From Eimeria necatrix (lineage: Eukaryota > Apicomplexa > Conoidasida > Eucoccidiorida > Eimeriidae): a stretch of 23,573 nucleotides of DNA. Of this stretch, positions 5,563 through 23,573 are shown in pieces. The DNA is taken from assembly GCF_000499385.1 (NCBI RefSeq), contig NW_013651676.1, positions 2,123 through 25,695 on the forward strand. Reading direction: 5' to 3'. A program made the position numbers and the translations under genes. Each line of letters begins with the position of its first letter. The first letter of the stretch is position 1. The notes below the pieces were generated by a model, which saw only the letters and a list, made by a program, of their open reading frames with translations, was not told the DNA's origin and made no database searches.

Positions 5563-6432
5563 CGCTGCTGGCGCAGCTACTGGACTTCTACAGCACTGGG
5601 GGCTGGGACTGCCACTTGGGGGCCCCCCAAAGACTTCTTGCTGCTGGAGGGGTTAGGGTACTAAACCCTAGTAGGACCCGGGGGGCCCCCGAGGGGGCCC
5701 CCCCCGACATCACAAGGGACCAGTTCTTCTCCTTCGCAAAGGTTAGGGTTTAGGGTTTAGGGTTTAGGGTTTAGGGTTTAGGGTTTGGGGCGGGGGGCTC
5801 AGGGTTTGCGGGGGCAGGGTGGCGCGTCGACCCAGGGGGTAGGGTTTGGGCGAGGGTTTAGGGTTTGGAAGGGAAATAAGGGTTTGAGCGAGGGTTTAGG
5901 GTTTGGGCGAGGGTTTAGGGTTTCAAGGAGGGTTTAGGGTTTCAAGGAGGGTTTAGGGTTTGGAGGGAAGATTAGAGTGTGTTCGAGGGCTCAGGGCTTG
6001 CCCGAGGGTTTAGCGTTTGGAGAGTGTTCGAGGGTTTAGGGTTTGCTTGAGGGTTTAGGGTTTAGGGTTTAGGGTTTAGGGTTTAGGGTTTGGGGCGTTT
6101 TGGTGTCTCAGGGTTTTTATTCAAGTTTGCTGAAGGCCCAAATGCCTCGAGGAAGACCCCCTTTGGTGGCTAGTGGCAAGGGGGGCCGCGGGGGTCTTAG
6201 GGTTTAGGGTTTAGGGTTTAGGGTTTAGGGTTTAGGGTTTGGGGCTCACAACGAGGCCTCGCAGCCCCTAGGCAAGGGCCTAACTGCAATTTCGAGGTGA
6301 AGTGCTTCCGGACGCTCGAAGCCGTTAGGGTCTAGGGTTTAGGGTTTAGGGTTTAGGGTTTAGGGTTTAGGGTTTAGGGTTTGGCAGCACATGATGAACT
6401 TCAGGGCCTACGGTTTGGCCCTGCGTAGCTAG
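4536..6432 (+). CDS. Candidate protein with TTTAGGG introns, four exons, function unknown
   Basis: Exon a, 4536-5741, is one open frame with long Ala and Gln runs and protein-like stretches: LGCLPKGQNRGLSIWSALKS, EVPFNVIQSSFARKG, CSFIPFERVTYKPLGPLL, LLDFYSTGGWDCHLG and DITRDQFFSFAK. Its donor is AAG|GTTAGG. Exon b starts at 6112 after TCTCAG (GFYSSLLKAQMPRGRPPL); its end is uncertain, with phase-1 GT sites at 6173 and 6194. Exon c is 6265-6323 (PRQGPNCNFEVKCFRTLEA), again with donor GTTAGG. Exon d starts at 6388 after TTGGCAG (HMMNFRAYGLALRS) and stops at TAG 6430-6432. Phases match at each join (with a phase-1 end for exon b). The 4536 start is simply the first ATG and could be wrong. I recognise no family. 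Exon a could also be read on the minus strand, and the splice donors are poor by consensus. Confidence 0.45.
5742..6111 (+). repeat. Degenerate and clean TTTAGGG array, proposed intron
   Basis: The array starts with five or more clean TTTAGGG units, passes through about 250 bp of spaced variants (GAGGGTTTAGGGTTT with spacers such as CAAGGAG and GGGC), and returns to clean units at about 6055-6090. GT at 5742 and CTCAG at 6107-6111 border it and would join phase-0 exon ends. Confidence 0.75.
6173..6264 (+). repeat. TTTAGGG block between exons b and c
   Basis: Six to seven clean TTTAGGG units lie at 6198-6241, followed by GGGGCTCACAACGAGG and the acceptor CTCGCAG at 6264. The donor side is uncertain: GT at 6173 or 6194 would both give phase 1, which matches the two leading bases of exon c. 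Confidence 0.6.
6324..6387 (+). repeat. 64-bp intron made almost wholly of TTTAGGG
   Basis: The segment reads GTTAGGGTCTAGGG, then seven TTTAGGG units, then TTTGGCAG. Both GT and AG are supplied at the edges of the repeat. Its length is not a multiple of three and the repeat carries TAG in one frame, so the flanking frames are joined only if it is removed. It is the clearest short example of a telomere-repeat intron in the window. Confidence 0.6.
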
Positions 6433-6960
6433 CCAGCAGTCTGGCTAGCTAGTTAGACAGCTAGCTAGCTAGCTAGCTAGATAGCCAGCTAGACAGCTAA
6501 CTAGAAAGCTAGCTAGAAAGCTAGCTAGCCAACTATATGGTTAGTTGGCTAGCCAACTAGCCGTATCGCTAGCTAGCTGGCTAGCTAGCTAGCTAGATGT
6601 GAAGCACCTAGCTAGCTAGCTAGCTAGCTAGCTAGATATGAAGCACCACGCAGGTGAAGGACAGCTAAATAGATGGCTACGTGGCTCCTTACCCAGCTGG
6701 CTAGCTAGCTAGCTACCCCACTAGCAGCTAGCTAGGCAGCTAGCTGGCTAGCTGCCCTGCTAGCTGCCTAGCTAGCCAACTAGCTATCTACTAGCCGGCT
6801 AGCCAACTGCCCAGCGAGCCATCTAGCTAGTCAGCCAGCTAGCCAGTTACCAGCGAGCTATCTAGCTAGCCAGCTAGCTAGCAGCCAGCTAGCTTGCCAG
6901 CTAGCTAGCTAGCTACGAAGCTGCCGAGCTAGCCACATAACTACACAGCTAGCCAGTGCG
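6427..6960. repeat. CTAG tetranucleotide array
   Basis: About 530 bp consist largely of GCTA/CTAG units, with up to about seven perfect tandem copies and many one-base variants (CCAG, TTAG, ACAG). The unit is self-complementary, so any stretch can fold on itself. A 15-bp insert, TAGATGTGAAGCACC, recurs as TAGATATGAAGCACC about 42 bp later (from about 6594 and 6636). The array begins at the TAG stop of the candidate plus-strand gene. I see no coding sense in it. Confidence 0.95.
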
Positions 6961-10458: not shown

Positions 10459-12061
10459 AATTAAAATTAAATTAAATTAAATTAAATTAAAAATAAATTT
10501 ACCTCAAGTGCTGCTGGCCGTGGCGTTTGAGTTGGACTTTTGGGAGAGAAAACCAAATTGTCAATATCGCCTGAAATCAAATAAATAAATAAATAATTTA
10601 ATTTAATTTAATTAATTTAATTTAATTAATTTAATTTAATTTAATTAATTTAATTTAATTTAATTAATTTAATTTAATTTAATTAATTTAATTTAATTGA
10701 TTTAATTTAATTAATTTAATTAATTTAATTTAATTTAACGAATTTAATTTAATTCATTTAAGTTATTTAATTTAATTTAGTTTAATTGAATTTAGTTTAA
10801 TCTAATTTAATTAATTTAATTTAGTTGATTTGATTTGATTTGATTTAATTAATTTGATTTAATTAATTTGATTTAATTTGATTTAATTTAATTTGATTTG
10901 TAAAAAGGAACTGAAAAGAAGATTTGAGAAGTGAAGGGATTTAAAAGTGAAGACAAAAAAGAATTAAATTAAATTAAATTAAAACTAAAATTTAATTTAA
11001 TTTAATTTAATTTAATTTAATTTAATTTAAATTGAATGAATTAGAAAGAAATCGAAAGAAATTTTAAGAATTAAATAAATAAAAGAAACAAAACAACGAA
11101 GTATATAAAAAGAAAGAAGAAGAATTAAATAAACGAAAAGAATTAAATAAATAAAAAGAGTTAAACAAACAAAAAGAAACAAATAAAAAGAATTTAAAAA
11201 AATAAAGAATTAAATAAAATAAATAAAAAGAATCAAATAAATAAAAAGAGTTAAATACATAAAAAGAATCAAATAAACCAAAATAAACAAAACAATTAAA
11301 ATAAAATAAATAAAATAAATAAAATAAATAAAATAAATAAAATAAATAAATAAAATAAATAAATTAATTAATTAATTAATTTAATTAAATAAAATAAATA
11401 AATAAAATAATTCGCTGACTATTTCGAATTCCCTTGAGGAGTTTTTTGGTGTTTTGCGTCGAAGCCATTTGCTGCTCATAATTGTCTATTGCATGCAGCA
11501 GCCCGGCCACGCAGCCCCCGAAGTGCTGCTGCTGCTGCTGCTGCTGCAGCTGCTGCTGCTGCTGCTGCTGCTGCTGCGGCTGCTGCTGCTGCTGCTGGTT
11601 GGGATGCTGCTGCTGCTGCGCGTGCTGGTCGCGCTGCTGCTGCTGCTGGTTCTGGTCGTGCTGCTGCTCCTGCTGCTGCTGGTTCTGCTGCTGCTGGTGC
11701 TGCTGCTGCTGGTTGTGATTGTGCTGCTGCTGCTGCTGCTGCTGCTGTTGCTGCAGGAAGCGGTTTATGACAGCAGCATAGCCGGAGCTGTAAACGCGGA
11801 CAGCCTCTGCTGCTGTGGCGTCGAAGGATGCTGTTGCTGCTGCTGCTGCTGCAGCGGCGGCGTCGGGGTCCGTTTCTGCTGCTGCTGCAGTTGCTGCTGC
11901 TGCAGCACGCGCAGCAGCAAACAAAGCGTCCGTGCTGTCCCCACAAGGGACCTGGGGGGCCCCCGGGGGCCCCTCTGGCAGCTTTTTGTAAAGAATAGTT
12001 CCATCCACATCTACAGCCACCAGCAGCAGCTGCTGCCAGATCCCCTGGGGGCCTGACACGA

Positions 12062-13657: not shown

Positions 13658-13808
13658 GGCAGCAGCATGGGCTTAGCCTCGGCCTGGCGCTGCAGCTGCT
13701 TCGGCCTAAAAGGCCTTAATGCAACGAGCCTGTTTCCTCTCCCTGCTGCTGCAGCTGCTGCAGCTAGAAAGGGGGCTGCTGCTGCTGCAGCAAGGAGGGG
13801 GCGCCTGC

Positions 13809-13921
13809 TGCTGCAGCTAGAAAGGGGCCTCTGCTGCTGCAGCGAGTAGAGGGCCCCTGCTGCTGCAGCTAGAAAGGGGCCTCTGCTGCTGCGGCGAGTA
13901 GAGGGCCCCTGCTGCTGCAGC
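13809..13921. repeat. 52-bp tandem repeat, about two copies
   Basis: A unit containing GCAGCTAGAAAGGGGCCTCT, a CTG/CGG run and GCGAGTAGAGGGCCCCT is repeated with a period of 52 bp (GCAGCT at 13813 and 13865). A related but shorter form precedes it from about 13755. It is bounded by CTG runs. Confidence 0.85.
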
Positions 13922-14145
13922 TAGGACGTGTCCCCTGCAGCTGCCGGATGATTCAGTGGGGCCCTGAGGGGCCCTGCTGCTCCCATCTTCTGGCAAATTC
14001 GAGCGCAGCAGCAGCAGCTATCTTGCCTCTGTGGCACCCCAGCTCTTGCGAGCTGCTGCTGTGTGTGTCAGCTAGCTGCTGCTGCAGCAGTGGCAGTTTT
14101 GTGCTTCTCTTTTCGCTGATTTGAGCAGCCACCTGTTCTCCAGCC

Positions 14146-21104: not shown

Positions 21105-21116
21105 GTGTACGTACAC
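21105..21116. promoter_or_regulatory. 12-bp palindrome GTGTACGTACAC, copy 1
   Basis: A perfect 12-bp palindrome that is not part of a simple repeat. The identical sequence, with matching G and T flanks, occurs 291 bp downstream. Both copies are in the region upstream of the NEK kinase, so a transcription-factor site is possible, for instance for an ApiAP2 protein; this is a guess from symmetry and location. Confidence 0.3.
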
Positions 21117-21395: not shown

Positions 21396-21407
21396 GTGTA
21401 CGTACAC
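21396..21407. promoter_or_regulatory. 12-bp palindrome GTGTACGTACAC, copy 2
   Basis: Second perfect copy of the palindrome, about 390 bp upstream of the proposed kinase start at 21788 and just before CTGCAG-rich sequence. See copy 1 for interpretation. Confidence 0.3.
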
Positions 21408-22185: not shown

Positions 22186-22291
22186 AGGCTGGAGTGCATG
22201 GAGGACCCACGCATGGCTGAGTTTGAAGTGGTGAAGCCCCTTGGCCAGGGGCAGTACGGCAGAGTCTTCTTAGTGCGACACAAAGTGAGGC

Positions 22292-22363
<72 letters not shown>

Positions 22364-22375
22364 AATCTTCCGGCT

Positions 22376-22416
<41 letters not shown>

Positions 22417-22464
22417 GCCCCAGCTGGCCCGCGCGTGCTGCTTGACCTCCCCCGCCCCCACCAC

Positions 22465-22503
<39 letters not shown>

Positions 22504-22818
22504 AGGAGACGGGCGCGCTGCTGTGCTGGAAAGCAGTGAAGTACGGGGGGCTGCGCGCGCGGGAGAAGCAGCAGCTAGTTGCTGAAGTGAACATCATGCG
22601 GGGACTGCAGCACGAAAACATCGTGCAGTACTTCGAGCACTTCGTGCTGCGGCAGCAGCAGCAGCTTTTCATTTTGATGGAGTTCTGCGACGCCGGCGAT
22701 CTGCAGCAGCAAATCGAAAGGGCCCACAGGCACTTGGGGGGCATTCCCGAGGCCCGCGTGCTGCCCGTGCTGCTGCAGCTGCTGCGCGCGCTCGCCTACT
22801 GCCACGAGGGAGTCGGTA

Positions 22819-22884
<66 letters not shown>

Positions 22885-22920
22885 GCGCGCTCGCCTACTG
22901 CCACGAGGGAGTCGGTAAGC

Positions 22921-22953
<33 letters not shown>

Positions 22954-22989
22954 GCGCCCTCGCCTACTGCCACGAGGGAGTCGGTGAGC

Positions 22990-23034
<45 letters not shown>

Positions 23035-23160
23035 CAGCGGCTATATCTGTTTGCGGCTTGCTGCTGCAGGCCCTGGGAAAGTGCAGGTGCTGCACCGCGA
23101 CCTGAAGCCGTCGAACGTGTTCCTGAGCACGCGCAGCAGCAGCAGCAGCGCAGCAGCAGC

Positions 23161-23192
<32 letters not shown>

Positions 23193-23455
23193 TGGTGGTG
23201 AAGGTGGGGGACTTCGGCCTCTCCCGCCACCTCAGCCCCCACAGCTGCGCACACTCCTGTGTAGGTACACCCCACTACTGGAGCCCCGAGCTGCTGCGCG
23301 AAGGCCCCAAAAGCTACGGCAGCAAAACTGACCTCTGGAGTCTCGGCTGTTTGCTGTTCGAGATGGCCACGGGCCGGACTCCGTTTGCTGCAGCGCAGCA
23401 CCTCCACCAGCTGCGACAATGCGTCGCCAAAGGACCCAGCCTCCCGATTCCGGGG

Positions 23456-23490
<35 letters not shown>

Positions 23491-23573
23491 GGTGCTGTGG
23501 GTGGTCGTGGTTGTGCTGCTGCTGCTGCTGCTGCGGCGCTGCGGGGGGGGGTGGTGCTGCTGCTGCGCTGCTT
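21788..23573 (+). CDS. NEK-family serine/threonine protein kinase, 5' part, truncated by the window edge
   Basis: Exons: (21683 or ATG 21788)-21873, donor GTAAGG; 22188-22284, donor GTGAGG; 22506-22815, donor GTACG; 23070 to about 23454. Phases 2, 0 and 1 match. The N-terminal extension ends VERQHEASPVSDKASEAPK. Kinase motifs in order: glycine loop LGQGQYGRVFLV, the CWKAVKYGG lysine, EVNIMRGLQHENIVQYFEHF, hinge LMEFCDAGDL, ALAYCHEGVG, catalytic LHRDLKPSNVFL, DFGLSRHL, GTPHYWSPELL, and KTDLWSLGCLLFEMATGRTP. The pattern closely follows human NEK2 (WKELDYG, EVNLLRELKHPNIV, GTPYYMSPE), recalled from memory. All catalytic residues are present. A Ser5-Ala4-Gln-rich insert lies between NVFL and VVKVGDFG. 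After LPIPG near 23454 the sequence turns into CTG/GTG-rich DNA, probably an intron. NEKs act in cell division and cilium or flagellum control; the role here is unknown. Confidence 0.88.
21874..22187 (+). repeat. Kinase intron with CAG then CTG tracts
   Basis: The intron starts GTAAGGACTCTAACC, then has a CAG run (21888-21932), mixed sequence, and a run of about 15 CTG ending in CTGCAG at 22187. The change from CAG to CTG within one intron gives two self-complementary arms about 210 bp apart. Confidence 0.75.
22285..22505 (+). repeat. Kinase intron with three (CTG)n blocks
   Basis: From GTGAGG to CTGCAG there are three CTG blocks (about 22293-22361, 22378-22415 and 22467-22503), separated by short unique sequence. 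The splice joins the glycine-loop exon to the ATP-lysine exon in phase 0. Confidence 0.8.
22785..22985 (+). repeat. Three copies of the 3' end of kinase exon 3, each with a GT donor
   Basis: A 31-bp segment encoding RALAYCHEGVG occurs at 22785-22815, 22884-22914 and 22953-22983, separated by CTG runs. Copies 1 and 2 are identical in the coding part; copy 3 has one change (GCGCGC to GCGCCC). The following bases are GTACG, GTAAGC and GTGAGC. Copy offsets are 99 and 69 bp, both multiples of three, and the CTG runs between are open as poly-Leu, so all three donors would leave the downstream exon in frame. Confidence 0.9.

Follow-up and report, generated by a model that had tools for sequence, protein, structure and literature searches.

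A triplicated exon edge with three candidate splice donors, linked by CTG runs, in a NEK kinase gene of Eimeria necatrix

The end of the second exon of a NEK kinase gene of E. necatrix is present three times in the genome assembly, as a 31-bp stretch located at positions 22785–22815, 22884–22914 and 22953–22983, each copy leading into a GT donor and then a run of CTG. Positions are those of the window, the whole 23,573-nucleotide stretch of contig NW_013651676.1 that was analysed, and all features of the gene lie on its + strand. We consider it somewhat probable that CTG repeats drove the triplication of this exon-intron junction, with the first donor producing a kinase of ancestral length and probably serving as the main one, and with copies 2 and 3 residing within the intron as decoys.

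A kinase profile built from 150 kinases was aligned with GT-AG introns to both strands of 22 loci. Exon 1 (22198–22284, by spliced translation) opens with an ATG at 22198 or 22213 and ends at the donor GTGAGG. Intron 1 (22285–22505), which was recovered by the profile alignment, holds CTG runs of 22, 12 and 12 units and has CTGCAG at its 3' end. Exon 2 up to the first donor (22506–22815, likewise by spliced translation) encodes the kinase domain through LLQLLRALAYCHEGVG, and exon 3 (23070–23460, the 3' end being approximate) continues with HRDLKP, a Ser/Ala/Gln repeat and DFG onward. When joined, the three segments yield a kinase domain that is cut by the end of the 25,695-base contig, which is also the end of the window and lies in CTG-rich sequence 113 bp past modelled exon 3. 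An intron 2 spanning 22812–23086, proposed by an aligner that had no donor information, was rejected, because GTCGGT makes a poor donor and GVG-LNRVRIL is retained in the Cyclospora protein.

The assignment of the gene to the NEK kinases, made in an earlier note on this DNA, is well founded. The top solved-structure matches of the predicted kinase are to NEK2 (PDB 2jav and others, E 1.9e-50), the Pkinase domain scores 182.4 bits, and the top protein match is Cyclospora cayetanensis NIMA1 with 70% identity. Outside the NEK gene, the best place for NIMA1 in the E. necatrix genome is a kinase at 37%. Kinase protein searches that admitted lengths of about 144–913 amino acids returned no Eimeria-named match among the best 120 of 1296 and the best 120 of 140 matches, many of which are nameless; the viral contigs gave no match and the genome contigs two bacterial loci. 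The gene could in principle be non-functional, such that the copies would represent drift in a decaying kinase, and both its heavy repeat content and the truncation that places its 3' part beyond the contig would fit such a state. We regard this as very improbable, given that the HRDLKP and DFGLSR motifs are intact, the three exons lack a stop and the identity to the Cyclospora protein is high.

Within the triplication, exonic CTGCAGCTGCTG directly precedes copy 1, whereas pure CTG precedes copies 2 and 3. Copy 2 is identical to copy 1 over all 31 bp, and copy 3 differs from both at a single base, a GCG to GCC change that is synonymous for Ala. The intervening runs comprise (CTG)21 between copies 1 and 2 (22821–22883) and (CTG)10 between copies 2 and 3 (22923–22952), and a further run, (CTG)13, extends past copy 3 (22992–23030). 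Both the copy number with its coordinates and the spacing of 99 and 69 bp between the copies thus agree with what had been claimed for this region. A search of the 44.0-Mb assembly for the 31-mer, tolerating as many as 3 mismatches, found it three times, each time at the NEK locus, as compared to no match for a reversed control, which excludes chance. Differences between the copies fall at 3 of 8 sites in the donor flank but at 1 of 31 sites in the exon part (Fisher p = 0.022, on few sites).

Such an arrangement might also arise if a short-read assembly had strung together, via the CTG runs, a single copy, or alleles that differ in their donor flanks. The published E. necatrix Houghton assembly was generated on the Illumina HiSeq 2000 and comprises 55.0 Mb in 3707 contigs (PMC7564333); the smaller set analysed here (44.0 Mb, 1148 contigs) is presumably a filtered form of it. 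An open frame on another contig of this set has 100% identity to the Aurora kinase of E. necatrix. The contig itself stops in CTG-rich sequence, and the CTG/CAG runs in a 223-kb sample become fewer with length and reach 23 units at most, with four runs, a slight excess, at 22. This stop may mark an upper limit imposed by the length of reads or words, and the introns of the NEK gene hold runs of 21 and 22 units. Each copy, however, exhibits its own combination of bases, which a simple assembly duplication of one copy would not make, and these copy-specific bases argue for the existence of three distinct sequences. In addition, no further match to the 31-mer is found in the assembly, and neither the window nor 20 other 10-kb loci contain an N. 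An assembly artefact therefore appears unlikely, albeit a prospect to be taken seriously.

The three donor flanks were scored against a motif derived from E. necatrix introns that were shorter than 1500 bp and came from alignments with a score of at least 90. These amount to 43 introns, 39 of them distinct, because L006 and L016 represent the same locus and four introns are counted twice. The resulting motif is nAG/GTRAG-like (the slash marking the splice site), and its source introns score between -1.5 and 6.3. An earlier donor motif, self-trained with the profile-to-genome aligner, swelled to 561 introns and was dropped. Donor 1 (GTACGCTG, 22816–22823), the last three bases of which are the first CTG of the adjoining run, scores 3.15, donor 2 (GTAAGCCG, 22915–22922) scores 4.60 and donor 3 (GTGAGCCG, 22984–22991) scores 3.97, placing all three inside the range of the source introns. 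By this motif all three donors are plausible, and they share one common acceptor, TTGCTGCTGCAG (23058–23069). The donors of copies 2 and 3 are indeed nearer to the consensus than that of copy 1, as the earlier note stated, yet the margin is below 1.5 bits and donor 1 is an ordinary donor. Predicted RNA folding, which ignores proteins and co-transcriptional folding, leaves the 9-mer of donor 1 the most open, with mean unpaired values of 0.38, 0.32 and 0.12 for donors 1, 2 and 3, respectively.

Apart from the common acceptor, intron 2 contains only one CAG or TAG, which ends at 23037. The six AGs found from donor 1 through donor 3 are all GAG or AAG, and the absence of CAG and TAG from this interval indicates that the copies add donors rather than exons. 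Splicing from donor 2 would add 33 residues, including 21 consecutive Leu, and splicing from donor 3 would add 56 residues with Leu runs of 21 and 10; neither product contains a stop, and the in-frame arithmetic put forward previously holds for both. Retention of the whole of intron 2 would lead to a TGA within exon 3, read in the wrong frame. The length of intron 2 is 254 nt from donor 1 and 86 nt from donor 3, and only 1 of the 43 modelled introns falls below 86 nt.

The orthologue favours the shortest of these products. Cyclospora NIMA1 reads LLQLLSALAYCHEGVG-LNRVRILHRDLKP, with ALAYCHEGVG passing straight into LNRVRILHRDLKP, and so carries the exon edge once, at the length that donor 1 gives. 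The score of the local alignment to this one protein, the only close orthologue compared and a non-Eimeria one, is 967 for the donor-1 product, 926 for the donor-2 product and 903 for the donor-3 product. The spacer between CH and HRD is 11 residues long in the donor-1 product, as it is in Cyclospora, and would reach 44 or 67 residues with donors 2 or 3; across the aligned kinases it ranges from 3 to 27 residues (measurable in 147 of 150).

We suggest that the copies originated in a recent, local tandem triplication of the exon-intron junction driven by the CTG repeats. Slippage or unequal exchange between the run of CTG that opens intron 2 and a short stretch of CTGCTG within exon 2 would, in each of two events, have copied 39 bp (the 31-bp exon end together with the 8-bp donor flank) plus a variable number of CTG units. 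The spacing of the CTG tracts is 39 bp, reduced to 36 bp at copy 1 by a C-to-T difference that extends the run, and as a consequence every copy step from CTG to CTG is a multiple of 3. Such slippage would keep the frame automatically, and the in-frame spacing of the donors is therefore no sign of selection; the sole coincidence that would be required is that the two tracts are in phase, which has one chance in three. A breakpoint within shared CTG would account for the coding CTGCAGCTGCTG before copy 1 and the pure CTG before copies 2 and 3.

Following these events, the upstream-most donor would continue to produce the NEK kinase of ancestral length and is probably the main one in use, with copies 2 and 3 sitting within intron 2 as decoy donors. 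We infer the dominance of donor 1, and that the later donors go mostly unused, as we do the slippage itself. The single-copy, donor-1-length form in Cyclospora can be counted for the preference for donor 1. Against this preference, donor 1 has the lowest motif score, and the concentration of differences in the donor flanks, in tiny numbers, is not expected if copies 2 and 3 drift freely while donor 1 is constrained.

Introns that open with CTG look usual in E. necatrix. GTRAG stands just before a CTG run of at least 7 units at 133 places genome-wide, 2 of them at the NEK locus, as compared to 6 and 26 for two permuted motifs. GTRAG before a CAG run occurs 225 times, but in most of the matches listed the run itself supplies the AG of the donor, which makes a comparison of the two counts unsound, and we derive no strand rule. 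An acceptor would be formed where CAGG follows a CTG run, and this combination is found at 1837 places, a raw count on which no conclusion is based. In a listing of 100 of the 133 GTRAG-CTG sites, the NEK pair is the only one with both members on the same strand and less than 1.9 kb apart, so that these 100 sites give no sign of a genome-wide ladder built in just this way.

In the kinase models, the CTG-type runs are mainly intronic, numbering 14 in 13,280 intronic bases and 3 in 14,922 exonic bases, the three exonic runs all belonging to one model (L018) and being read as Ala. None of the CTG runs in these models, which are a small sample, is read as poly-Leu. CAG-type runs number 4 in introns and 4 in exons. 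These counts leave out the duplicate locus L006, models scoring below 90 (among those printed, L022, L025 and L029) and introns of 1500 bp or longer. Repeats described for Eimeria differ in composition from the NEK runs: those of the E. falciformis genome are of Ala, Gln or Ser and lie outside functional domains (PMC4287421), and an analysis of E. tenella reports amino-acid repeats of Ala, Ser and Gln (PMC9131526). In the kinase frame the NEK CTG runs would read Leu, rather than the Ala, Ser or Gln of the homopolymeric amino-acid repeats (HAAR) of Eimeria. We note that the Ser/Ala/Gln repeat of exon 3 (23133–23192) resides within the kinase domain, between NVFL and DFG, and has no counterpart in the Cyclospora orthologue, and thereby departs from the rule in PMC4287421 that repeats lie outside functional domains.

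The window contains further repeats. Tandem units with CTG/CAG runs occur within it (2156–2352 and 23470–23572) as well as, in 200 kb of other loci, at L012 and L018. Those at 2156–2352 (85 bp, 2.3 copies) and 13754–13924 (52 bp, 3.3 copies) are rich in CTG/CAG, and at 23457–23573, directly past exon 3, CTG repeats resume, with a 44-bp tandem unit of 2.5 copies at the contig end. Other arrays include a long, degenerate TAGC array (6426–6915), an AT-rich array of the TAATT type (10594–10899) and several arrays of AAACCCT/AGGGTTT spread over the first 14 kb. At another locus (L026, 4956–5111), a 75-bp exact repeat with a distance of 81 bp is located within a modelled kinase intron. The 44.0-Mb assembly contains 2413 copies of a perfect 14-bp palindrome, GGTGTACGTACACC (reversed control, 0), some of the listed copies being 20 or 26 bp apart. 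The 12-bp core of this palindrome is found exactly at 21105–21116 and 21396–21407, 0.8–1.1 kb upstream of NEK exon 1, and its 10-bp core 24 times in the 223-kb sample, 23 of these within L012, L018, L029 and the window. Neither the 12- nor the 10-base string gave a match together with Eimeria in the literature searched.

If donors 2 and/or 3 were used at meaningful rates, the gene would produce in-frame NEK variants in which poly-Leu and a repeated RALAYCHEGVG precede the catalytic loop. Their higher motif scores, the stop-free products, an exon part that is nearly unchanged in all three copies and the variable length of the spacer before HRD among related kinases, up to 27 residues, are all compatible with such use. 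In long-read (SMRT) cDNA of E. necatrix, moreover, alternative 5' splice sites outnumber every other class of event, both in sporozoites (812 of 2752) and in second-generation merozoites (959 of 3255; PMC8474931). Public PacBio cDNA of this species is deposited under PRJNA730346 and PRJNA753889. The resulting spacers would nevertheless exceed all those measured, and an unbroken row of 21 Leu would look like a membrane segment and probably disturb a soluble kinase. The Leu composition is also at odds with the repeats described for Eimeria in the two sources above, the retained frame follows from slippage, the Cyclospora orthologue has one copy, and the NEK pair is the only closely spaced one among the GTRAG-CTG sites listed. 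Taken together, we find meaningful use of the later donors distinctly improbable. The earlier note had left the choice between a generator of kinase isoforms and a set of decoy donors; the decoys are the more likely half. The generator found no support in the measurements; the frame is kept automatically, Cyclospora has the donor-1 form alone, and the Leu of the inserts would contrast with the Ala/Ser/Gln repeats. A wider idea, that CTG slippage acts as a donor ratchet in Eimeria wherever a donor is placed between in-phase CTG tracts of exon and intron, building frame-keeping ladders of competing donors and strain-variable kinase isoforms that would add to the alternative 5' share of E. necatrix, is a long shot.

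The preferred reading, a CTG-driven triplication with donor 1 in main use, is similar to, but distinct from, several known systems. Short tandem duplications across an exon-intron boundary that copy a splice signal are known (PMC4974935, PMC2891723), and intron gain by tandem duplication (PMC4974935) resembles the NEK case in this boundary-spanning copy. There, however, a new intron arose, whereas the NEK copies comprise the donor side only, are joined by CTG and result in extra donors; no CAG or TAG acceptor, and thus no new donor-acceptor pair, is present between them. Tandem GYNGYN donors likewise compete for one acceptor, and their alternative splicing is known to produce mostly subtle protein variants (PMC1779574), but they lie within one short motif, as opposed to the candidate NEK donors, which are 69–99 bp apart and carry copied exon sequence. 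The CAG amino-acid repeats of Eimeria (PMC4287421, PMC9131526) also consist of trinucleotide runs that reshape genes without a frameshift, as does the exon 3 repeat in the kinase domain itself. By contrast, the NEK runs are sense-strand CTG, fall within an intron if donor 1 is used and have an effect beyond the lengthening of a protein run, in that they multiply a splice junction. Compared with NEK2, its best solved-structure match, the E. necatrix kinase shares the kinase domain but has a repeat insert between NVFL and DFG and potential extra donors before HRD. A limited search of open-access literature, in itself weak evidence, found no description of a CTG-flanked, frame-keeping multiplication of a donor.

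The locus illustrates neatly how a splice junction could be copied by trinucleotide repeats with the frame left intact. If the extra donors are unused, it calls for caution with gene finders in CAG/CTG-rich genomes, where repeated exon edges present several equally good-looking donors. If they are used, the repeat load of Eimeria would be tied to isoform diversity.
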